A DNA stretch of 35,932 bases from Candidatus Atribacteria bacterium (lineage in GTDB: Bacteria; Atribacterota; Phoenicimicrobiia; Phoenicimicrobiales; Phoenicimicrobiaceae). The position numbers were made by a program, and so were the translations under genes. The stretch spans positions 1 through 35,932 of the forward strand of contig DSEL01000151.1 of assembly GCA_011056645.1 (NCBI GenBank), in the 5' to 3' direction. Below the pieces are notes generated by a model that was not told the DNA's origin, searched no databases, and saw nothing but the letters and a program-made list of their open reading frames with translations. Below, piece after piece: positions 2,147-20,087 of this stretch. Within the stretch, counting starts at the first letter, position 1. The number at the start of each line of letters is the position of its first letter.

Positions 2147-2175
2147 TTGACATTTATGTTTAATTGTTGTAATCT
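2147..2175 (+). promoter_or_regulatory. Candidate sigma-70-type promoter upstream of the ilvB leader
   Basis: A perfect -35 TTGACA (2147-2152) is followed after 17 bases by TAATCT (2170-2175), a weak -10. Transcription would start near 2182, about 20 bases before the first paired strand of the T-box leader, which is the expected geometry. The -10 is a poor match, so read-through from ilvD remains possible. Confidence 0.5.
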
Positions 2176-2202
2176 ATTTTTTAATAAATAAAAATTGTAC
2201 AC

Positions 2203-2487
2203 CACGAAGGAAAAAGTAGGCAAGCCGAGATGGTTAAAGAGAGCCGATGGTTGGTGCGAATTGGTACCAAAAGTTTGCCGAAGATCTCACCTTCAATAAT
2301 TTATACACAGGTGAAATTGGATAGTAACCTGTGACGCTTCAAAAGCGTTATCTATTGTCTACTAATTAAGGATAAAGGCAGGGAAGATTTAGTTCTCCTT
2401 TTCTTTATTAAATTAGGGTGGTACCACGAATAACTTTCGTCCCTATTTTAATCTTTATGGATTAAAATGAAGATGAAAGTTTTTTTG
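2203..2487 (+). promoter_or_regulatory. T-box leader RNA (tRNA-sensing antitermination element)
   Basis: The diagnostic T-box sequence AGGGTGGTACCACG lies at 2415-2428. Upstream is a stem I with AGTA (2215-2218), AGAGAG (2238-2243) and the GAA partner of loop E at 2280-2282. The lower stem can pair GAAGG (2206-2210) with CCTTC (2290-2294), and GGCAA (2219-2223) with TTGCC (2275-2279). The enclosed right-hand loop reads GAAGATCTCA. The specifier is best read as CTC (2286-2288, leucine), because it is followed by the conserved purine. ATC (2284-2286, isoleucine) is the alternative. Uncharged tRNA binding should form the antiterminator and allow transcription into ilvB-N-C. The element sits between ilvD and ilvB. 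Confidence 0.93.
2433..2487 (+). terminator. Intrinsic terminator of the T-box
   Basis: The arm ACTTTCGTC (2433-2441) pairs with GATGAAAGT (2472-2480) with one G-U pair. Nested inside, ATTTTAATC (2444-2452) pairs perfectly with GATTAAAAT (2460-2468). A T-run (2480-2486, with more T after) follows. The 5' arm directly follows the T-box sequence, so it competes with the antiterminator in the standard way. Confidence 0.88.
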
Positions 2488-2495
2488 TTTTTTTG

Positions 2496-2608
2496 GGAGT
2501 ATGCCTAGGGTTCCGTCTAATCAATTAAGGTAAGAGCCTGGACCGAGTGGCATAAAATGCTAATATCATAGTATTAGTATTACACCGTGGGTAAAAAAGA
2601 CCCCAGCG
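2496..2608 (+). promoter_or_regulatory. ykkC-class riboswitch aptamer, probably ppGpp (subtype 2a) type
   Basis: Conserved ykkC-class blocks appear in order: CTAGGGTTCCG (2505-2515), CTGGACCGAG (2538-2547), small hairpins at 2550-2577, then ACACCGTGGGT, an A-rich loop and ACCC (2582-2603). This family includes aptamers for guanidine, ppGpp and PRPP. The ppGpp subtype is known to precede branched-chain amino-acid genes, which fits ilvB directly downstream; PRPP switches usually precede purine genes and guanidine switches precede exporters or carboxylases. The aptamer 3' strand (ACCC, 2600-2603) is also the start of the terminator 5' arm. Ligand binding should therefore block termination, making an ON switch. 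Family call is fairly sure; ligand is inferred from context. Confidence 0.78.
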
Positions 2609-2665
2609 GATAGGTCCCTTTTGTTTTAACTAACAAAATGGATTTACTCGCTGGGGTATTTTTAT
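2600..2665 (+). terminator. Intrinsic terminator of the ykkC-class riboswitch
   Basis: ACCCCAGCG (2600-2608) pairs perfectly with CGCTGGGGT (2649-2657). The stem continues with several G-U pairs and is capped by TTTTGTT/AACAAAA (2619-2638). ATTTTTAT follows at 2658-2665. It shares its 5' arm with the last aptamer helix, so the two structures are mutually exclusive. Confidence 0.88.
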
Positions 2666-2735
2666 ATGCAAAATTAAAAGTGCGATATAAATTATTTATT
2701 AATTTATATTAAATGATAGAAAGGGGATGGATAAT

Positions 2736-4406
2736 ATGAAGTTAACCGGAGCGCAAATAGCAGTAGAGTGTTTAAAAAAAGAAGGTGTAAAGGTAATATT
2801 TGGCATCCCGGGTGGGGTAATAATGCCTTTATATGATGTTCTTTATAGTGAAGCCTCAATAAAACATATACTTACCAGACATGAACAGGGAGCAGCTCAC
2901 GCTGCTGACGGATATGCCCGTGCTACCGGTAAAGTGGGTGTTTGTATAGCTACTTCCGGACCGGGAGCTACTAATTTGATCACCGGTTTGGCCAATGCAC
3001 ATCTTGACTCTATTCCTTTAGTCGCCTTTACCGGACAGGTGCCTACTAACTTAATTGGCACCGATGCTTTTCAAGAAGTGGATATTAGCGGCATTTCCTT
3101 ACCCATTACGAAAAATAATTATGTAGTAAGAGATGTAAAAGATTTGGCCAGGATTATAAAAGAAGCTTTTTATATTGCCAGAACAGGAAGACCCGGGCCA
3201 GTATTAATAGACTTTCCAAAAGATATTCAATTGGCAAAAACCGAGTTTAAATACCCTGAAAGTGTCAACTTAAATGGTTATAAACCAACTTTTAACGGGC
3301 ATGTTCAACAGATTAAAGCAGCAGCGCAAGAAATAAACAATGCTAAGAAACCAGTAATCTATGCAGGAGGAGGAGTTATTTCATCTAATGCATCCGCTGA
3401 ACTAAGAGATTTGGTTTTCAAAACCAATATTCCGATTACGACTACTTTAATGGGTTTGGGCTCTTTCCCGGAAACTCACTTTTTATCTTTGGGAATGTTG
3501 GGCATGCATGGTACTCCTTGTGCAAATTATGCTATGTGTGATGCTGATTTAATTATTGCTTTAGGAGTAAGATTTGATGATCGAATTACCGGGAAATTAG
3601 ATGAATTTGCTTTGAAAGCTAAAATAATCCATATTGATATTGACCCGGCTGAAGTAGGTAAAAATACCTTGGTAGATATTCCCATCATAGGTGATATTAA
3701 GAGTGTATTGGGAAAACTGAATAAATATATTCTTAAAAAAGAAGAACGAGAGTGGTTAAATGCCATAGAAGATTTTAAAAGAAAATATCCCTTAAAATAT
3801 ATTCGCAACGAAGAACTGAAACCACAATTTGTTATGGAAACCATTAATGAAATTGCCAAGGAAAATACCATTATTGTGACCAGTGTGGGGCAGCACCAAA
3901 TGTGGGCTGCTCAGTATTATCAACATACCGAACCTCGCGGTTTTATTTCTTCCGGAGGACTGGGGACCATGGGATTTGGTTTTCCGGCTGCCCTTGGGGC
4001 AAAGGTAGGCTGTCCCGAAAAAACGGTCATTTGTATTTCAGGGGATGGCAGTTTTCAAATGAACCAACAAGAAATAGCAACCGCTGTTAGTAATAATTTA
4101 GCTATTACAGTTATTATTATGAATAATGGTTTTTTGGGAATGGTGAGACAATGGCAAGAATTATTTTTTGATAAAAGATATGCTGAAACTACTTTAAATG
4201 GGAATCCTGATTTTGTAAAGTTAGTTGAAGCTTATGGGGGAATAGGAATAAGAGTGAATAAAAAACAGGAATTATATCCGGCTTTAGAAAAAGCCCTTTC
4301 CCTGAGTAAGTTTGTATTAATTGATTGCCTTATTCCCAAAGAAGAAAATGTATTTCCTATGGTAGCCCCAGGCTCACCGATATCTAAAATGATAGGAGTT
4401 GAATAA
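2736..4406 (+). CDS. ilvB: Acetolactate synthase, large (catalytic) subunit
   Basis: Condenses two pyruvates to 2-acetolactate, or pyruvate with 2-oxobutyrate to acetohydroxybutyrate, using ThDP and FAD. I place the start at ATG 2736 (MKLTGAQI), with AAAGGGG at 2720-2726 as a well-spaced ribosome binding site. The in-frame ATG at 2727 abuts that site and is unlikely. Length is 556 residues, normal for the family. The catalytic glutamate lies in TRHEQGAAHAADGYARATG (Glu50). The ThDP-binding segment GDGSFQMNQQE...NN is near the C-terminus and is followed by MVRQWQELFF. It is the first gene behind the tandem T-box/ykkC leader, and ilvN starts 2 bases after its stop. Confidence 0.97.
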   Translation: MKLTGAQIAVECLKKEGVKVIFGIPGGVIMPLYDVLYSEASIKHILTRHEQGAAHAADGYARATGKVGVCIATSGPGATNLITGLANAHLDSIPLVAFTGQVPTNLIGTDAFQEVDISGISLPITKNNYVVRDVKDLARIIKEAFYIARTGRPGPVLIDFPKDIQLAKTEFKYPESVNLNGYKPTFNGHVQQIKAAAQEINNAKKPVIYAGGGVISSNASAELRDLVFKTNIPITTTLMGLGSFPETHFLSLGMLGMHGTPCANYAMCDADLIIALGVRFDDRITGKLDEFALKAKIIHIDIDPAEVGKNTLVDIPIIGDIKSVLGKLNKYILKKEEREWLNAIEDFKRKYPLKYIRNEELKPQFVMETINEIAKENTIIVTSVGQHQMWAAQYYQHTEPRGFISSGGLGTMGFGFPAALGAKVGCPEKTVICISGDGSFQMNQQEIATAVSNNLAITVIIMNNGFLGMVRQWQELFFDKRYAETTLNGNPDFVKLVEAYGGIGIRVNKKQELYPALEKALSLSKFVLIDCLIPKEENVFPMVAPGSPISKMIGVE

Positions 4407-4408
4407 TA

Positions 4409-4927
4409 ATGAGACATACTATAGCAGTTTTAGTAAAAGATCATCCCGGTGTCCTGGCCAGAGTAGCCAGCTTATTTACCCGTCGTGGTTTTAATATTGA
4501 GAGTCTGGCGGTTGGTCATACCGAGGAAATTGATATTTCCAGGATGACTATTGTAGTCAAGGGGGATGAACGGACCTTGGAACAAATCACTAAACAGCTG
4601 AATAAATTAATTGATGTGGTTAGAGTTAAAGATATTTCTCCTAAAAATTCAGTTGAAAGGGAATTGGCTCTAATAAAAGTAAGTACTAATTCCTTGCCCG
4701 CCCGCTCGGAGATAATTCAAACGGTAGATATTTTTAGAGCAAATATAATTGATGTTAATAGTCAGATAGTAACCATTGAAACTACCGGAACAGAGGAAAA
4801 GATTAATGCCTTGATCGAACTATTACGTCCTTTTGGATTAAAAGAAGTCGTACGGACCGGAAAAATTGCTCTATCTAGGGGGAGTGCTACTACGTCAGTG
4901 TTAAAAAATAAAACGGAAAATAATTAA
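4409..4927 (+). CDS. ilvN: Acetolactate synthase, small (regulatory) subunit
   Basis: Regulatory partner of the catalytic subunit encoded just upstream. It stimulates activity and confers feedback inhibition by valine. The N-terminal ACT domain (about residues 3-75) starts with TIAVLVKDHPGVLARVASLFTRR and contains the typical GFNIESLAVG segment. A second ALS small-subunit domain fills residues 80-160. The 172-residue length is normal. It starts 2 bases after the ilvB stop, indicating translational coupling. The last ~12 residues are polar and poorly conserved in type. Confidence 0.96.
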   Translation: MRHTIAVLVKDHPGVLARVASLFTRRGFNIESLAVGHTEEIDISRMTIVVKGDERTLEQITKQLNKLIDVVRVKDISPKNSVERELALIKVSTNSLPARSEIIQTVDIFRANIIDVNSQIVTIETTGTEEKINALIELLRPFGLKEVVRTGKIALSRGSATTSVLKNKTENN

Positions 4928-4935
4928 AATTATGA

Positions 4936-5967
<1,032 letters not shown>

Positions 5968-6122
5968 ATTCGTATCTCGCGAAGAAAAGAAAAATATCCA
6001 GGTAATCATTATAGATTGTAGGAGATAAGGTTTAGTGCTGTTTAAATCCTTAATTAACTAATTGGCGAATTGGAGAATTGGTAAATCGGAGAATTGGTGA
6101 ATTGATAAATGAGGTGAAAAAT
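5968..6122. repeat. Intergenic gap with degenerate repeat words
   Basis: At 5969-5984 is a TTCGTATCTCGCGAAG word related to those at 8550-8585 and (inverted) 16383-16407. From 6059 to 6108 the sequence is a loose tandem of GAATTGG/GAATTGGT/AAATTGG units. The same unit type recurs at 12942-12984. The tail of the gap carries the GAGGTGA ribosome binding site (6111-6117) of pheA. No terminator is evident. Confidence 0.6.
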
Positions 6123-6944
6123 TTGCAAAACAGAGTGGCATTTCAAGGAGAAAGGGGAGCCTTTAGCGAGATTGCGGCCATTAAATTTTTTGGTTCTTCT
6201 ATTCATCCGATAGTTTGCAAAACTTTTAAGCAAGTATTCCAAAGGATAAATGATAAAGAAGCCGACTATGGTATTCTTCCTATAGAAAACTCTCAAACCG
6301 GTGGAATAAATGAAGTCCATGACCTTTTGTTAAATCAGGGATTATTTGCGGTGGGAGAAATAAAATTAAGAGTTAAACATTGTTTAATAACCAAAGAAGA
6401 GATTGATTTTAAATTGATTGAAAAAGTGTATTCGCATCCTCAAGCGCTAGCTCAATGCGAAAAATTTCTCTCTACAAGATTACCTCATTGCCAGATAATT
6501 CCGGTTTATGATACGGCCGGGAGCGTAAAAATAATTAAAGAAGTAAAAGAAAATAATGTCGCGGCCATTGCCAGTAATTGGGCAGCAGAACTTTACGGTC
6601 TAAAAATACTGGATTCAGGGATTCAAGATAACAAATATAATTATACCCGTTTTTTGGTTTTATCGGAGGAAATATCTTCGGATCCTAAAAATAATAAAAC
6701 TTCTATTATTTTTGCAGTAGTGAGCAAGCCTGGAGCGCTTTATCGTTGTCTTAGGGAATTTGCTTTAAGAGAAATCAATATAAATAGATTGGAATCACGA
6801 CCTAGTAAAAGAGAGCCGTGGGAGTATATTTTTTATACTGATTTTGAAAAGGGATTGCAGGCACAAGAAACTCAAGAAGCATTAAAATCTTTGAAAGCCT
6901 GTACTACTTTTATAAAAATTATCGGGAGTTATTATTCCGAGTAA
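6123..6944 (+). CDS. pheA: Prephenate dehydratase with C-terminal ACT domain
   Basis: Converts prephenate to phenylpyruvate in phenylalanine synthesis. Start TTG 6123 is preferred: GAGGTGA lies 6 bases upstream and the protein begins MQNRVAFQGERGAFSE, the usual N-terminus. The longer frame opening at 6078 reads through the repeat and is rejected. The periplasmic-binding-like catalytic domain spans roughly residues 3-185, including IENSQTGGI and NYTRFLVL with the catalytic Thr-Arg-Phe. The ACT domain (195-270) carries GALYRCLREF and ESRPSKREPWEY, the phenylalanine-binding GALV/ESRP-type motifs, so feedback inhibition is likely. No chorismate mutase domain is fused. It is an isolated aromatic gene inside branched-chain genes. 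Confidence 0.95.
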   Translation: MQNRVAFQGERGAFSEIAAIKFFGSSIHPIVCKTFKQVFQRINDKEADYGILPIENSQTGGINEVHDLLLNQGLFAVGEIKLRVKHCLITKEEIDFKLIEKVYSHPQALAQCEKFLSTRLPHCQIIPVYDTAGSVKIIKEVKENNVAAIASNWAAELYGLKILDSGIQDNKYNYTRFLVLSEEISSDPKNNKTSIIFAVVSKPGALYRCLREFALREININRLESRPSKREPWEYIFYTDFEKGLQAQETQEALKSLKACTTFIKIIGSYYSE

Positions 6945-6989: not shown

Positions 6990-8522
6990 ATGACAGATAA
7001 TATATTAATTTTTGATACTACACTTCGAGACGGAGAACAATGTCCGGGTGCATCACTTAACACTGATGAAAAATTGGAGGTAGCCAGGCAATTAGAGAAT
7101 CTTAAAGTTGATGTAATAGAAGCAGGCTTCCCCATTGCTTCACCAGGAGATTTTGAAGGGGTAAAATTAGTTGCTCAAACCATTAAAGGTTGTAGTATTG
7201 CCGGTTTAGCTCGAACAATAAAAAAAGATATTGAAAGAGCCTGGGAAGCAATCAAATATTCCGAAAGACCGCGAATCCATACTTTTATTGCCACTTCTCC
7301 CATTCACATGAAATATAAACTGCAGCTTTCTCCCGAACAAGTTTTAGAACAAGCAATTGAGGCAGTAAGATATACCCGCAAGCTCTGTCCGGAAGTGGAA
7401 TTTTCTGCCGAAGATGCCAGCAGGAGTGAGAAAGAATTTTTATACAGAATTTTTAAAGAAGTAATCAAGGCCGGTGCCACTATCGTAAATGTACCTGATA
7501 CGGTAGGATATGCTCAACCGGAAGAGTTTGGCAGATTAATAAAAAATATTAAAGAAAATGTTTCTAATATTGAAAAGGCGGTCATTAGTGTCCATTGTCA
7601 TAACGACCTGGGCTTGGCGGTGGCCAATTCCTTGGAAGCAATCAAAAATGGAGCCACTCAAATAGAGTGCACTATAAATGGAATTGGCGAGAGAGCAGGA
7701 AATGCATCTTTGGAAGAAGTGGTGATGGCTATTCATACCAGGAAAGATCTTTATCATAAAGTTACCCGGATTAATTCCACACAAATATATCCTGTCAGCA
7801 GATTGGTGAGCAAATTAACTGGCTTTACAATTCAACCCAATAAGGCAATAGTGGGGAAAAATGCCTTTGCCCATGAGGCAGGAATTCATCAGGCTGGAAT
7901 CTTGAAAGAGCGTACTACTTATGAAATTATGACCCCTCAATCAGTAGGATTGGAAAGCAATAGCTTGGTTTTAGGAAAACATTCGGGACGGCACGCTCTA
8001 AAGAATAAATTGGAAGAGATGGGCTATGTCTTGGATAAAGAAAAATTAAATGAAGTATTTGAAAAATTTAAGAAATTGGCCGATAAGAAGAAAGAGATTT
8101 TTATTGAAGATTTAGAGGCAATTGTATCCGAAGAAATAATAGGGAAAGTCCCCGAGACTTTTTGCTTGGACTATTTTCATATCAATACCGGTAATAACAC
8201 TTTACCTACCGCAACCGTAAGATTATTATTTCAAGATAAAAAATTTGAAGATGCAGCCTGTGGAGATGGTCCGGTAGATGCTTCTTTTCGAGCTATAGAT
8301 CGTATTACCAAATTAAAGCTAAAATTAGTAGATTACAATGTTCGTGCTTTAACCAAAGGTAAGGATGCTCAAGGGGAAGCAACTATTAAGATAAGGGATG
8401 CAAAAGGAAATATTTTTACAGGTAGAAGTACAAGTACGGACACTTTGGAAGCCAGTATCAGAGCTTATCTTAAGGCAGTAAATAGAATAGTATACAATTT
8501 AGTTTCAACTACTCATGATTAA
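6990..8522 (+). CDS. leuA: 2-Isopropylmalate synthase
   Basis: Condenses acetyl-CoA with 2-ketoisovalerate, the committed step to leucine. The 510-residue protein has an HMGL-like TIM barrel (about 1-270) with [14 protein letters not shown] at residues 9-22, the metal-binding HCHNDLG, and NGIGERAGN. This is followed by a linker with FAHEAGIHQAG and LGKHSGRHAL, and a C-terminal allosteric (LeuA dimer) domain from about residue 365. The latter ends in the substrate-dispersal type segment GDGPVDASFRAID and TGRSTSTDTLEASIRAYLKAVNR. Leucine feedback is therefore expected. The ribosome binding site is GGGGGAGG just upstream. A second, divergent family member (cimA) lies 249 bases downstream. Confidence 0.96.
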   Translation: MTDNILIFDTTLRDGEQCPGASLNTDEKLEVARQLENLKVDVIEAGFPIASPGDFEGVKLVAQTIKGCSIAGLARTIKKDIERAWEAIKYSERPRIHTFIATSPIHMKYKLQLSPEQVLEQAIEAVRYTRKLCPEVEFSAEDASRSEKEFLYRIFKEVIKAGATIVNVPDTVGYAQPEEFGRLIKNIKENVSNIEKAVISVHCHNDLGLAVANSLEAIKNGATQIECTINGIGERAGNASLEEVVMAIHTRKDLYHKVTRINSTQIYPVSRLVSKLTGFTIQPNKAIVGKNAFAHEAGIHQAGILKERTTYEIMTPQSVGLESNSLVLGKHSGRHALKNKLEEMGYVLDKEKLNEVFEKFKKLADKKKEIFIEDLEAIVSEEIIGKVPETFCLDYFHINTGNNTLPTATVRLLFQDKKFEDAACGDGPVDASFRAIDRITKLKLKLVDYNVRALTKGKDAQGEATIKIRDAKGNIFTGRSTSTDTLEASIRAYLKAVNRIVYNLVSTTHD

Positions 8523-8771: not shown

Positions 8772-10322
8772 TTGAATCGGAAAATAGAAATTATGGATAC
8801 TACCCTAAGAGACGGAGAACAAATGAAGGGAGTAAGTTATTCTCCTCAGGAGAAATTGACTATTGCCAAAATTTTACTGGAAGATGTAAAAGTAGATAGA
8901 ATTGAAATTGCCAGCGCAAAAGTAAGTAAAGGAGAATTACAATCTGTAGCAGAAGTAATTGATTGGGCTCAACAGTCTAACCGTGTAGATAAGATAGAAA
9001 TTTTAGGATTCGTAGACAAAACAGAATCGGTGGATTGGATAGGTACTCTTGGTGGAAAAGTAATGAATATTCTTAGCAAAGGTTCAATGAATCATCTGAC
9101 AAATCAACTAAGAAAGACCAAAGAGCAGCATGTTCGAGACATAAAAGAAACTGTTGCCTATGCCAGAACTAAGGGGATTGCTTGTAACATATATTTGGAA
9201 GACTGGTCTCAGGGGATGCTTAATTCTCGAGACTACGTTTATTTTCTTTTAGATAGTCTTCAGGGGGAAGCGATAAAACGCTTTATGTTGCCTGATACCC
9301 TTGGAATTCTCTATTCTTCACAAGTTTATCAATTTATTAAAGAGGTTTTGACAAGATATCCTGAACTTAGTTTTGATTTTCATGCTCACAATGATTATGG
9401 CTTAGCTACTGCAAATACTTTAATTGCAGTCGAAGCCGGAATAAAGGGAGTCCATTGCACAGTGAACGGTATGGGAGAACGTACAGGAAATGCTCCTCTG
9501 GAAGAAGTAGTGGTTGGGCTTCATGATTTTCTTAAAATTAAAACCGGGATAAAAGAAAAACACTTATTTCATCTCAGTAAAACGGTTGAAGCCTTTTCTG
9601 GTCACCGCTTATCTTTAAATAAACCAATATGTGGTTCCAATGTCTTTACGCAAACCGCCGGAATTCATGCAGATGGAGATAAAAAGGGTAATCTTTATGT
9701 TACCTCCCTTTTTCCTGAACGATTTAACCGTAAGAGACAATATTCTTTAGGTAAATTAAGTGGGAAATCTAATTTAGAATATAATTTGGAAGAAATTGGC
9801 ATTGAACTTACCAAGGCACAAAAGAAACGTGTGTTAGAGAGAATTATTGAACTTGGTGACAGAAAAGAAACCATTACTGTAGGTGATTTACCTTATATTA
9901 TTTCAGATGTTTTGGAAACGCCTCAAGAAAAAACCTTTAAATTGATATTATGCAACATAGTAACCAGTATGGAATTGAAGCCTATTGCTGTGGTTAAACT
10001 ACTATATAATGATAAGATAAAGGGCAAAGAGACACAATTGGAAGAGAGTGCCCAGGGAGATGGAGGATATGATGCGTTTATGAATGCTATTCGAAAAATT
10101 GCGAAAAAAATAGATTATCCCTTACCGTCTCTTTTGGATTATACGGTGAATATACCTCCGGGAGGAAAAACGGACGCTTTGGTACAATGCACCATTACCT
10201 GGGGGTGGCAAAATCATAAAACTTTTATTACTAAAGGAGTAAATCCCGATCAAGTTTTAGCAGCTATAGAAGCGACCGAAAAAATGCTGAATATCATTGC
10301 TTTTCAGAAAACACTTAGTTAA
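8772..10322 (+). CDS. cimA: (R)-Citramalate synthase, Leptospira CimA type
   Basis: Predicted to condense pyruvate with acetyl-CoA to (R)-citramalate, opening the threonine-independent isoleucine route; LeuCD and LeuB then yield 2-oxobutyrate. TTG start with AAGGAAGTGA upstream. The 516-residue protein has a catalytic barrel with [22 protein letters not shown] near residue 77, IYLEDWS near 144-150, the HAHNDYG metal motif and NGMGERTGN. The linker contains [16 protein letters not shown] and LGKLSGKSN, and the regulatory domain has [11 protein letters not shown] and [10 protein letters not shown]. These segments agree closely with my memory of Leptospira interrogans CimA, rather than with LeuA or homocitrate synthase. 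No threonine deaminase lies in the window, consistent with this role. Confidence 0.87.
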
Positions 10323-10413: not shown

Positions 10414-11580
10414 TTGGCTATGCAAAGAACCTATGAGGAGATTAATACTAAAATTAAAAGTGGTAAAGCGGTTGTGGTGACTGCCGAGGAAATTATTCCT
10501 ATAGTCCGGGAAAAAGGTTTAGAAAAGGCTGCAGAAGAAATTGATGTGGTGACTACCGGTACTTTTGGGCCCATGTGTTCCTCGGGGGTAATATTAAATT
10601 TTGGGCACAGTGATCCCCCTATCCGCATGCAACAAGTTTGGTTGAATGATGTTGAGGCTTATGCAGGATTAGCAGCAGTGGATGTCTATTTGGGAGCTAC
10701 TCAACTTTCTGAAAACCGGGGGATGGAATATGGAGGAGCTCATGTCATTGAAGATTTAATTTCGGGGAAAAAGATTAAGCTAAAGGCTATATCCCAGGGA
10801 ACCGATTGTTATCCGCGGCGGGAGATAGAAAGTTATGTAACCAAAAAAAGTATAAATCAAGCAGTATTGTTTAATCCGCGAAATAGTTATCAAAACTATA
10901 ATGTGGCGGTCAATACTTCTGATAGAAAGATATATACTTATATGGGGATCTTGCTTCCTAAAATAGGAAATGCAAATTATTGTACCAGCGGTCAACTAAG
11001 CCCTTTAATCAATGATCCTCAATTTAGTACTATCGGTATCGGTACCCGCATCTTTTTAGGAGGAACGCAAGGTTATATAGCTTGGGAAGGAACGCAATTT
11101 TGCCCTCAAGCGCTAAAGGACGAGGAAGGTAAAGTCATCTATAAAGGAGGTACTTTAGCAGTTATTGGAGATTTAAAAGAAATGAGCACAGATTATATTC
11201 GTGCGGCGACTTTTAAAGGATACGGAGTGACCTTGGTGGTAGGTATAGGAATACCAATTCCTATTTTAAACATTGAAATAATGAAAAATGTAGCTATAAA
11301 GGATGAGGATATTTGGACGGAAATAATTGACTATAGTTTCCCGCACTTAAAAAAACCCTCTTTGGGCTGGGTGAATTATAAGCAATTAAGGGAGGGGGAA
11401 ATTACGATTCAAGGGAAAATTGTTCCCACCTCTCCTCTTTCCAGTTATGCGAAAGCTCGAGAAATATCTCAAAAATTAAAAGAAGAAATATCCGGGGGAA
11501 AATTTCTTTTACAGGAAGCGATTCAAAAATTTCCTAAAGAATGTGAATTCAAATCTTTATCGGAAATTCATTTAAAATAA
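10414..11580 (+). CDS. DUF39/COG1900 homocysteine biosynthesis protein
   Basis: Family members were shown in Methanosarcina acetivorans to be needed for making homocysteine from aspartate semialdehyde and sulfide, together with a NIL-domain ferredoxin. The start is TTG 10414 with GGAGG 8 bases upstream. The 388-residue protein begins with TYEEINTKIKSGKAVVVTAEE. It has conserved cysteines in TFGPMCSSG (Cys55) and GTDCYPRRE (Cys132), plus NANYCTSG (Cys180). I take Cys55 and Cys132 to be the functionally important pair. The archaeal relative carries a C-terminal CBS pair; this protein ends without one. The next gene is the NIL-ferredoxin partner and the one after is UPF0280, so the three-part set is complete. 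Cytoplasmic. Confidence 0.9.
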   Translation: MAMQRTYEEINTKIKSGKAVVVTAEEIIPIVREKGLEKAAEEIDVVTTGTFGPMCSSGVILNFGHSDPPIRMQQVWLNDVEAYAGLAAVDVYLGATQLSENRGMEYGGAHVIEDLISGKKIKLKAISQGTDCYPRREIESYVTKKSINQAVLFNPRNSYQNYNVAVNTSDRKIYTYMGILLPKIGNANYCTSGQLSPLINDPQFSTIGIGTRIFLGGTQGYIAWEGTQFCPQALKDEEGKVIYKGGTLAVIGDLKEMSTDYIRAATFKGYGVTLVVGIGIPIPILNIEIMKNVAIKDEDIWTEIIDYSFPHLKKPSLGWVNYKQLREGEITIQGKIVPTSPLSSYAKAREISQKLKEEISGGKFLLQEAIQKFPKECEFKSLSEIHLK

Positions 11581-17178: not shown

Positions 17179-18441
17179 ATGGGAAAAACAATTGTAGAGA
17201 AGATATTCTCTACTCATACAGATACCCCTAATTTTAGGGTAGGAGATATCATTAAAGCTCGGGTGGACTTTGCCTTTGCCAATGACATCACTGCGCCCAT
17301 TGCAATAAAATATTTTAAAGAAAGTGGTGCCAGACAAGTATTTAATCAAAAGAGAATTGGTTTAATCCCTGATCATTTTGCTCCCAATAAAGATATAAAA
17401 TCTGCAGAACAGTGTAAGCTATTAAAAGAATTTGCTCAGGAGTACGGAATAGAGAATTATTTTGAAATAGGTAAAATGGGAGTAGAACATGCCCTACTAC
17501 CAGAAAAGGGATTGGTGCTTCCCGGTGAAGTGATAGTAGGGGCAGATTCTCATACTGGCACTTCCGGAGCATTGGGTGCTTTTGCTATCGGAGTGGGAAG
17601 TACCGATTTAGCAGCGATTATGGCCTTAGGTGAGGTCTGGCTTAAAGTGCCGCCTACCATAAAATTTATTTATTCCGGGAAATTAAATAAATGGGTCAGC
17701 GGAAAAGATCTGATCCTTTATACTATTTCCAGGATTGGAGTCGATGGAGCAAATTATAAGGTGATGGAATTTAACGGGGAAGTGATTAAAGGACTTTCTA
17801 TGGATAACCGCTTTACCATGTGTAACATGGCCATAGAGGCAGGGGCTAAAACCGGAATTATCGAACCCGATGAGATTACTATGACATATCTAAAAGGGCG
17901 AGCCAAGAGACCTTTTAAGGTTTATCAAAGTGATCGCGATGCTCATTATGAGAAAATTATAGAGATTGATGTCGGTAAAATTGAGCCTCAAGTAGCTTTT
18001 CCTCATTTACCGGAAAACGCTAAACCGATTAGCGAAGTAAAAGAGATTAAAATTGATCAGTCTATTATCGGTTCCTGTACTAACGGGAGGATAGAAGATT
18101 TACGTATAGCCGCAGAAATCCTAAAAGGGCAGCAAGTTCATCCTAAAGTCAGATTGATTATTATTCCGGCAACTCAAGATATCTACCTGCAAGCTATTCG
18201 AGAAGGTTTAATTGGTATCTTCATTAATGCAGGTGGAGCAGTTAGTACTCCTACCTGTGGTCCATGTTTGGGCGGATATATGGGTATTTTGGCTAAAGGG
18301 GAAAAGGCAATTTCTACCACAAACAGGAATTTTGTAGGAAGGATGGGACACCCCGAAAGCGAAGTATACCTGGCCAGTCCTGCTCTTGCTGCTGCTTCTG
18401 CTATTTTAGGCAGAATAGCCAGTCCCGAGGAGGTAAAATGA
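17179..18441 (+). CDS. leuC: 3-Isopropylmalate/citramalate dehydratase, large subunit
   Basis: Aconitase-family [4Fe-4S] subunit that isomerises 2-isopropylmalate to 3-isopropylmalate. With CimA in the same cluster it should also isomerise citramalate to 3-methylmalate. The 420-residue length fits the archaeal/anaerobe LeuC-HACN type, shorter than E. coli LeuC. Cluster cysteines are visible at Cys300 (GSCTNGR), Cys360 and Cys363 (PTCGPCLGG). [23 protein letters not shown] is well conserved. It begins after an AAGGAG site and ends one base before the small subunit. A homoaconitase reading is possible from sequence type alone, but context favours leucine/isoleucine. Confidence 0.94.
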
Positions 18442-18442
18442 A

Positions 18443-18952
18443 ATGACGATTAAAGGCAAAGTATGGAAATTTAAAGACAATATTGATACCGATGTAATAA
18501 TTCCTGCTCGTTATCTTAATACCTCTGAACCTAAAGAGTTAGCTTTGCATTGCATGGAAGATTATGATTCTGAGTTTGTTAAAAAAATGACTCGGGGTGA
18601 TATTATAGTGGCTGGTAGAAACTTTGGTTGCGGGAGTTCCCGCGAACATGCACCCATTGCCTTAAAAGCAGCAGGTGTATCTTGTATTATCGCTCAATCT
18701 TTTGCTCGAATCTTTTTTAGAAACGCCATAAACATTGGTCTTCCCATCTTTGAATCCGAAGAAATTGCAGATCAATGTTCCGAAGGTGATTTTCTAAAAG
18801 TGGATACAGCCAGAGGAATAATAGAAAATATTAATAAAGATAGAGTTTACGAAATAAATCCCTTACCAGTCTTTATTCAAAATATTATTTCTTCGGGTGG
18901 ATTAAGAGAATATGTTAAAGAAGAAATAAAGAGGAGAGAAAAAGATGTATAA
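18443..18952 (+). CDS. leuD: 3-Isopropylmalate/citramalate dehydratase, small subunit
   Basis: Swivel-domain partner of the preceding large subunit. The 169-residue length is that of the archaeal-type small subunit. It shows [20 protein letters not shown], where the YLNT loop is the substrate-recognition segment, and [12 protein letters not shown], the aconitase signature containing the catalytic serine. It starts one base after the leuC stop, with GAGGAGG of the leuC tail as ribosome binding site. It overlaps the next gene by 8 bases. It should accept both isopropylmalate and citramalate, since only one leuCD pair is present. Confidence 0.95.
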
Positions 18953-20087
18953 TATAGCTTTAATTCCCGGTGATGGGATAGGACCGGAAATAATAAGAGA
19001 AGGCAAGAAAGTAATTAAAGCAGTATCCAAAATATTTGCCATAGATATAAATTGGATTGAATATCCTTTTGGCGCTGAACATTACCTGAAAACCGGAGAA
19101 TTATTACCCGATAGCGCCTTAAAAGAGATTGAGGATATGGATGCAATCTACTTTGGAGCTATTGGTGATCCCCGAGTAAAACCGGGAATTTTAGAAAAAG
19201 AGATATTATTGAAAGCCAGGTTTTACTTTGACCAGTATATTAATCTACGTCCTATCAGATTGTATAAAGGAGTTCCTTGTCCCCTGAAAGATAAAAGCCC
19301 GAAGGATATTAATTTTTATGTGGTTAGAGAAAATACAGAAGATTTTTATATAGGAATAGGGGGAAGGTTTAAAACCAAGGCGAACCAGGACCATCTGGAA
19401 GTAAAAAGAAAATTATATAAAGCTAAAATAGAAGTAGGTTTTAATTTAGAACAAGAAGAAGAGATGGCTTATCAGGTTGGTTTGATCAGCAGATCTGGGG
19501 CTAAAAGGGTAATTAAGTATGCTTTTGAGTTAGCCAAAAAGAAGAATTTAGAAAGGGTAACTTCAGTAGATAAAGCTAATGTGTTAACAGATATTTATGG
19601 ATTATGGAGAGAAATATTTGGAGAAGTTTCCCGCCAGTATCCTGGTATCGAGACTGAGTTTAACTTTGTTGATGCCGTTGCCATGTTTTTTATTCAAAGA
19701 CCCGAATGGTATCAAGTGGTAGTTACTCCGAATATGTTCGGAGATATTATTACCGACCTAGCAGCGATGATCCAGGGGGGGTTAGGAATAGCTGCCGGAG
19801 GAAATATAAACCCTGAAGGTGTATCTATGTTTGAACCTGTGCATGGTTCTGCCCCTGATATAGCCGGTAAAAACATTTCTAATCCCACTGCCACAATACT
19901 TTCCGGTGCAATGATGTTAGATCATTTAGGAGAGACTAAAGCTGCTCGAGCCATAGAGGATGCAATAGAAAAAATCTTCATGGAAGGTAAAATAAAGTCT
20001 CATGACTTGGGAGGAAATTCATCTACCATCAAAATAGGGGATGAGATTATAAAAAAATTATGGCAAGTATCACAGTTCAGCAAATAA
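18945..20087 (+). CDS. leuB: Isopropylmalate/3-methylmalate dehydrogenase (beta-decarboxylating dehydrogenase family)
   Basis: Oxidises and decarboxylates 3-isopropylmalate and probably 3-methylmalate using NAD+. The 380-residue protein is longer than the usual ~355. The substrate helix reads KEILLKAR, keeping the two leucines (Leu88, Leu89) and Arg92 that recognise isopropylmalate, then NLRP (Arg102). However, the next motif is [17 protein letters not shown], where classic LeuB has an ELTGG-type sequence. That makes it closer to tartrate/homoisocitrate dehydrogenase relatives. Lys in VDKANV and the GDIITD aspartates are present. [10 protein letters not shown] indicates NAD rather than NADP. 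The overlap with leuD supports a leucine/isoleucine role. Confidence 0.85.

Follow-up and report, generated by a model that had tools for sequence, protein, structure and literature searches.

The window, the whole 35,932-nt stretch of Candidatus Atribacteria bacterium DNA analysed here, carries the ilv and leu genes for branched-chain amino acid synthesis within one merged operon. The genes that concern us are the following:

2736-4406, + strand: ilvB, acetolactate synthase large subunit (TIGR00118, 841 bits; RBS-like AAAGGGG upstream)
4409-4927, + strand: ilvN (TIGR00119)
4972-5967, + strand: ilvC (TIGR00465)
6078-6944: pheA, between ilvC and leuA
6990-8522, + strand: leuA (TIGR00973)
8772-10322, + strand: citramalate synthase-like gene, possibly cimA (best match NF042433, 656 bits, below the cut-off of 950)
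17179-20087, + strand: leuC, leuD and leuB (TIGR02083, TIGR02084 and NF002898)

We placed the start of ilvB at 2736, in preference to the first in-frame ATG (2727). Between the citramalate synthase-like gene and leuC-leuD-leuB lie several C1/corrinoid and proline genes. The window IlvB shares 90% identity with the protein of Candidatus Atribacteria bacterium RBG_19FT_COMBO_35_14, a genome that has the same leader RNA tandem as the one described below. Also within the operon, positions 10414-11580 encode a protein that partly matches methanogenesis marker 16 (TIGR03287, 132 bits, cut-off 364), and this gene is kept at the same operon place in the window's family (f1). Near the contig end, a 124-aa ORF (67-441) matches homocysteine S-methyltransferase models over 118 internal residues only; a relative (L151, genome G034) has a full 301-aa ORF that is 87% identical over this part, and the window copy looks truncated, either at the contig end or through a frame break.

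The leader upstream of ilvB contains these features:

2147-2175, + strand: promoter, TTGACA 2147-2152, 17-nt spacer, TAATCT 2170-2175 (read directly)
2192-2447, + strand: T-box leader with stem I, stem III and antiterminator (RF00230, 112.5 bits, E 2.5e-24 over the whole window)
2280-2294, + strand: specifier strand, S-turn GAA 2280-2282, G 2283, AUC 2284-2286, CUC 2286-2288, A 2289, CCUUC 2290-2294 (read directly)
2415-2444, + strand: T-box sequence AGGGUGGUACCACGA and antiterminator, UGGU bulge 2419-2422 (read directly, RF00230)
2432-2494, + strand: terminator 1, stem 2432-2481, U-tract 2480-2494 (-20.3 kcal/mol, z -7.22)
2495-2618, + strand: putative ykkC subtype 2a (ppGpp-type) aptamer (RF00442, covariation, markers of PMC6031431)
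2495-2498 and 2615-2618, + strand: aptamer P0, GGGA/UCCC (covariation)
2500-2505 and 2549-2554, + strand: aptamer P1
2548, 2583 and 2604-2605, + strand: aptamer marker bases, U2548 (position 49), C2583 (position 75) and bulged C2604-A2605, with A2605 at position 96
2600-2663, + strand: terminator 2, stem 2600-2657, A, UUUUU 2659-2663 (-34.0 kcal/mol, z -8.34)

An initial annotation had described two antitermination elements in series before ilvB-N-C, a T-box and then a ykkC-class element, and we confirmed this observation by Rfam matches, comparative markers and mutually exclusive pairings between aptamers and terminators. A scan of the region returned both RF00230 and RF00442, the latter at 2494-2611, so that a significant ykkC match does occupy the 2490-2610 interval. 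The T-box scored above the RF00230 gathering score of 93 bits. For each of the two terminators, none of 200 shuffled sequences folded with an energy as good. UCCC 2440-2443 of the antiterminator is taken up by the 5' arm of terminator 1, and the two pairings are thus mutually exclusive. The 5' arm of terminator 2 is the aptamer 3' half (the 3' strands of P3 and P0), which makes aptamer and terminator 2 mutually exclusive as well; this overlap recurs in most of the ykkC loci compared. The second, independent terminator that had been proposed at 2600-2665 was therefore borne out, as was the complete T-box with a terminator of its own. The first unit does not end at 2487, as proposed, since its U-tract reaches 2494; nor does the second element, which is indeed downstream, follow a few bases later: P0 begins at 2495, leaving zero spacer between the T-box unit and the aptamer.

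A single promoter (2147-2175) serves both elements, each with its separate terminator, in one 5' UTR. With a -10 hexamer that fits in just three of six positions, it went unlisted in a simple promoter scan; relatives in f1 have TTGACA and TAATCT, TAAGCT, TATAGT or TATATT at the equivalent position. The same scan, which passed over 2147-2175, listed no + strand promoter-like site between the T-box and the aptamer.

Which ligand the second element senses was judged from several markers. The RF00442 (ykkC / guanidine-I) match to the + strand reached 50.3 bits (E 5.5e-8, 661-nt scan), under the gathering score of 63 bits, as expected since the Rfam model represents subtype 1 and the aptamer belongs to subtype 2. 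The scan of this region gave no hit to a ppGpp or PRPP family of Rfam. A model of our own, R1, gave 134.6 bits, a circular score since the window aptamer is among its members, and was excluded from the evidence. A pyrimidine at position 49 sets subtype 2 apart from guanidine-I, which has A there (PMC6031431), and position 49 was C or U in all 38 aligned aptamers. A G at position 96 marks PRPP and not ppGpp aptamers, and G96A converts a PRPP aptamer to a ppGpp aptamer with an ~40,000-fold change in specificity (PMC6031431). The window retains C75 (C2583) and has A2605, not G, at position 96. This numbering depends on the register of P3, which is fixed by covariation: locus L128 has A2590/U2602 in place of G/C, and the wobbles G2591-U2601 in L135 and U2592-G2600 in L124 are in register, leaving C2604-A2605 bulged and A2605 at position 96. 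The Rfam alignment sets G2606 opposite C2583, a hint of PRPP that we rejected, given that P3 covariation dictates the other register.

P0 can form at 45 of 46 loci (GGGA/UCCC, GGAA/UUCC, CAGAA/UUCUG, UGGRA/UUCCA) through A-U, G-C and G-U exchanges; two-sided changes were seen in 17 of the 30 consensus pairs of the aptamer alignment, and C78-G79-U80 pairs with G97-C98-G99 by covariation in this ilv-type pocket. Among the relatives examined, a Rel protein scored above the family cut-off in 21 of 21, and CodY in 0 of 21. Other members of the class in the phylum precede genes for a branched-chain amino acid-binding ABC protein and BrnQ-like, GDH-like and GAF-domain proteins (named by eye from translated starts). 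Taking together the markers at 96, 49 and C75, the covarying closing helix, the gene context, the conserved Rel and the absence of CodY, we conclude that the second element very probably senses ppGpp, in line with the ppGpp subtype suggested initially. We considered it improbable that the element binds another ligand of the ykkC family, be it PRPP, guanidine or a nucleoside diphosphate (subtype 2c). The ykkC classes are nearly alike in consensus and one base can switch the ligand (PMC6031431, PMC7266159), and the same genome carries a PRPP switch (L014); against this stand the pyrimidine at 49, the lack of G at 96 and downstream genes that are of branched-chain amino acid metabolism, not purine, NUDIX or guanidine genes. 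Guanidine-I was rejected on U2548 instead of A at position 49, on 50.3 against 63 bits and on gene context; PRPP was rejected on A2605 instead of G at position 96 and on gene context. The PRPP switch of L014, part of a guanine-PRPP tandem before purE, provides an internal contrast, with the PRPP sequence CCCAGGCGG at the position-96 site.

Guanine-PRPP tandems, a known arrangement found here in Atribacterota, precede purE (L014, L137, L139) or a purC-like gene (L138, named by eye). We also observed a second ppGpp-type aptamer subtype in the same genomes, bulge-less, with U at position 78 and a continuous helix at positions 95-98, before genes for a GAF-domain protein (L095-L102, L106, L113) or a branched-chain amino acid-binding ABC protein (L012, L108, L115, L118, L131). 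The 3' pocket of the ilv-type, CAGC with a 2-nt bulge, is not identical to that of this bulge-less liv-type, and sensitivity, affinity or ligand could differ between them.

Very probably, the T-box/ppGpp-riboswitch tandem controls the merged ilv-leu operon, with a predicted high output upon uncharged tRNA combined with high ppGpp. RNA polymerase would initiate from the promoter at 2147-2175. Terminator 1 would be passed only when an uncharged tRNA docks on stem I and, by pairing its ACCA end with the UGGU bulge, stabilizes the antiterminator. Within a few bases the ykkC subtype 2a aptamer would be transcribed, and ppGpp would stabilize P0 and the 3' pocket, whose strand otherwise forms the 5' arm of terminator 2; in the Cba ppGpp riboswitch, ligand-stabilized pairs of the closing helix resist invasion by the terminator (PMC10687018). 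Both terminators would have to open, such that high output is expected only with uncharged cognate tRNA and high ppGpp together. The identity of the ligand, the direction of the switches and the AND behavior are what we infer here: both elements are ON switches by their anatomy, and their arrangement in series predicts an AND gate. Because ppGpp is synthesized in response to uncharged tRNA, the two inputs are correlated; what the gate sets may be a threshold and not a true AND.

We next consider how the two elements are distributed. ykkC-class RNAs occurred in 21 of the 50 genomes of the phylum surveyed, all in two families of one order, f1 (that of the window) and f2. T-box-to-ppGpp-type tandems numbered 19 in 15 genomes of these two families, with the T-box first in every case: nine carried AUC/CUC, six were of Leu type and four of Ile type. 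The elements come apart in some relatives, indicating that the switches evolve as separate modules. Before ilvB, G027 has only a T-box, as does G041 (there of the Ile form), and a ppGpp-type element stands alone before ilvD in G036 and before ilvB in G034, where just a tail resembling a T-box terminator is left, an apparent loss of the T-box. Such separation would fit the idea that only one element matters, the other being vestigial and the pair no gate, which we hold to be very improbable: in the window both aptamers, pockets and terminators are intact, most family members keep the pair, and G034 itself has a full tandem before ilvD in the same operon as its ppGpp-only ilvB.

We then turned to the codon read by the T-box. 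The S-turn motif AGUA (2215-2218) partners GAA 2280-2282, and downstream of this GAA an AUC (Ile, 2284-2286) overlaps a CUC (Leu, 2286-2288) ahead of the lower helix CCUUC (2290-2294). To calibrate the frame, we used T-boxes of the same genome, before pheS (UUC), trpB (UGG), leuS (CUC), thrS (ACC), hom (ACC) and argC (AGA). Their codons lie one base past the S-turn GAA, where a GAA is present, and one base ahead of the lower helix, except on the 7-nt argC strand, which has AGA in both places. The window strand, GAA-G-AUCUC-A-CC, is also 7 nt in length versus the usual 5, and has AUC in the first place and CUC in the second. The +0 rule of TBDB, which fixes the codon frame next to the lower helix, gives CUC (Leu) for the window. 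A host tRNA complementary to both CUC and UGGU exists, namely tRNA-Leu(GAG), with the 3' end ...GGCACCA and discriminator A73, and UGGU 2419-2422 can pair with its ACCA. The cognate tRNA of the window T-box would thus be at least tRNA-Leu(GAG), via CUC. We did not find tRNA-Ile(GAU) among the assembled tRNAs of this genome, probably owing to an assembly gap.

The T-boxes of this genome showed further features. The argC leader (L008, G000:C152:4393-4589), whose 7-nt strand AAGAGAG holds AGA (Arg) in both positions, has a second T-box/terminator unit downstream, and the leader of a trpB-like gene (L004/L011, G000:C226:5169-5597) has, besides a T-box, a second and incomplete one made up of antiterminator and terminator only. 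The leuS T-box leader (L005, G000:C85:3302-3622, - strand) encloses a complete tRNA-Ala(GGC) gene (about 3364-3439), which sits after stem III and before the antiterminator and caps a GUAGAU/AUCUAC-like helix. The nesting was seen in 15 genomes of both families (also loci L262-L270, L201, L203, L208, L209 and L247), and in the window's own genome this is the sole tRNA-Ala(GGC) found. Release of this tRNA would require processing of the riboswitch leader, and its production would not depend on read-through into leuS. Our literature search found no precedent for a tRNA gene nested in a T-box leader, and the case may merit separate study.

Neither the overlapping AUC/CUC specifier nor the Ile/Leu split in f2 described below was part of the initial annotation. 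We regard it as possible, without favoring it, that the window T-box reads two codons, with tRNA-Ile(GAU) on AUC and tRNA-Leu(GAG) on CUC each able to open terminator 1, giving (Ile OR Leu shortage) AND ppGpp. Such a reading extends the tandem explanation and does not contradict it. AUC is at the usual distance from the S-turn and CUC at the usual distance from the helix (TBDB +0). All f1 ilv leaders have 7 nt from the S-turn GAA to the lower helix, whereas 5 nt is commonest among the parsed T-boxes of the order, with length counts that are indicative only, as the automatic parser fails on or misparses some T-boxes. AUCUC is invariant in 10 of 10 f1 leaders from five genera, even though the leaders share as little as 66% identity with that of the window and the flanking bases vary between G and A; these ten leaders are, however, related by descent. 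The overlapping codons also match connected pathways, with one operon for Ile and Leu in f1. A precedent is an Asn/Glu T-box with overlapping codons that binds both tRNAs (Saad 2013, via PMC4052509). The missing tRNA-Ile(GAU), probably an assembly gap, counts against a two-codon reading. So does the register shift, which is two bases in the window and reportedly one base in the Asn/Glu T-box. The overlap could also be inherited and silent, given that for B. subtilis ilv-leu, itself a merged operon, a leucine response via a single CUC is reported (Marta 1996, cited in PMC2494555).

Comparison with f2 bears on the same question. Each f1 genome has one IlvB operon, with ilv and leu genes merged; each f2 genome has two, one with a T-box(AUC) and ppGpp-type element before ilvBNC (L105, L116, L110, L111) and one with a T-box(CUC) and ppGpp-type element before ilvBN-leuA-cimA-leuCDB (L119, L124, L126, L130, L132, L142). 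The f2 leaders each have a 5-nt strand whose sole codon matches its own operon, which favors two codons being read in f1. The IlvB tree was built with outgroups, since three monophyletic leader groups without an outgroup yield only one unrooted topology. In this tree f1 (98/93), f2-Ile (100/100) and f2-Leu (100/100) each formed one group, and the f2 Ile and Leu copies were sisters (83/80), again in favor of the two-codon reading. Two histories are conceivable. The ancestor may have had a two-codon T-box whose codons were parted once the operon had duplicated, or f1 may have added an overlapping Leu codon to what was an Ile T-box; under both, AUC is retained throughout the f1 spread. That the T-box reads Ile alone, through AUC, with CUC incidental, is unlikely in our view. 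The window leader is nearer the f2 Ile leader (stem III GCGUUA, GGUACCACGA), at 45-51% identity versus 37-43% for f2 Leu, but the helix-adjacent +0 frame is CUC, leuABCD lie within the operon, and the other calibrated T-boxes set their codon one base from the lower helix. Tentatively, then, and a shade less firmly than the two-codon reading itself, the f1 leader might be a three-input RNA gate, (Ile or Leu shortage) AND stringent response, and the f2 duplication might have split the codons between two tandems in a manner like subfunctionalization. If only CUC is read, the window tandem is simply another member of the published kind.

The tandem would extend all-RNA AND gates to Atribacterota, and, with no CodY found in the relatives, the ppGpp-type aptamer could connect branched-chain amino acid synthesis to the stringent response. 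The f1/f2 pair amounts to a natural experiment, in which two overlapping codons in a single operon can be set against two operons of one codon each. It makes two questions testable: whether the reading of two amino acids by natural T-box specifiers extends past the single case studied, and whether AND is truly what T-box/ppGpp tandems compute.

Among known systems, B. subtilis ilv-leu receives its stringent input via CodY/GTP, whereas CodY was not found in the window's relatives. The B. subtilis T-box shares with the window a CUC specifier on a merged ilv-leu operon (Marta 1996, cited in PMC2494555). With ppGpp riboswitches of subtype 2a (PMC10687018, Cba; PMC6031431, G96A structure), the window aptamer shares the core motif, the pyrimidine at 49, C75, no G96, the closing add-on helix and a terminator made from the aptamer 3' half, but differs in its pocket strand, CAGC with a 2-nt bulge. 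The two-codon T-box of Clostridium acetobutylicum, as described via PMC4052509 (Saad 2013), likewise has overlapping codons in one specifier loop for connected pathways; it serves Asn/Glu, whereas the window, a candidate only, has Ile/Leu, a two-base shift and an attached ppGpp-type switch. The closest match is the T box(Leu)/ppGpp tandem, published in 2018 and 2022 as a predicted AND gate (Sherlock 2018, PMC5912903; PMC9481103), with behavior that these sources treat as a prediction awaiting an in vivo test (PMC9481103, PMC6031431). Table 2 of PMC9481103 gives 16 T-box-first tandems and 15 in reverse order, and no T-box(Ile)/ppGpp tandem is among its entries. The AND-gate reading of the window tandem is therefore an already published design and not new. 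The window is like the published tandems in both riboswitch classes, separate platforms, gene class and T-box-first order, and differs in its Atribacterota host (lineages are not given in the text of those papers) and in the AUC/CUC overlap; the sister family f2 differs in its Ile version. What is new here is the phylum, the Ile/ppGpp version and the overlapping AUC/CUC codons.
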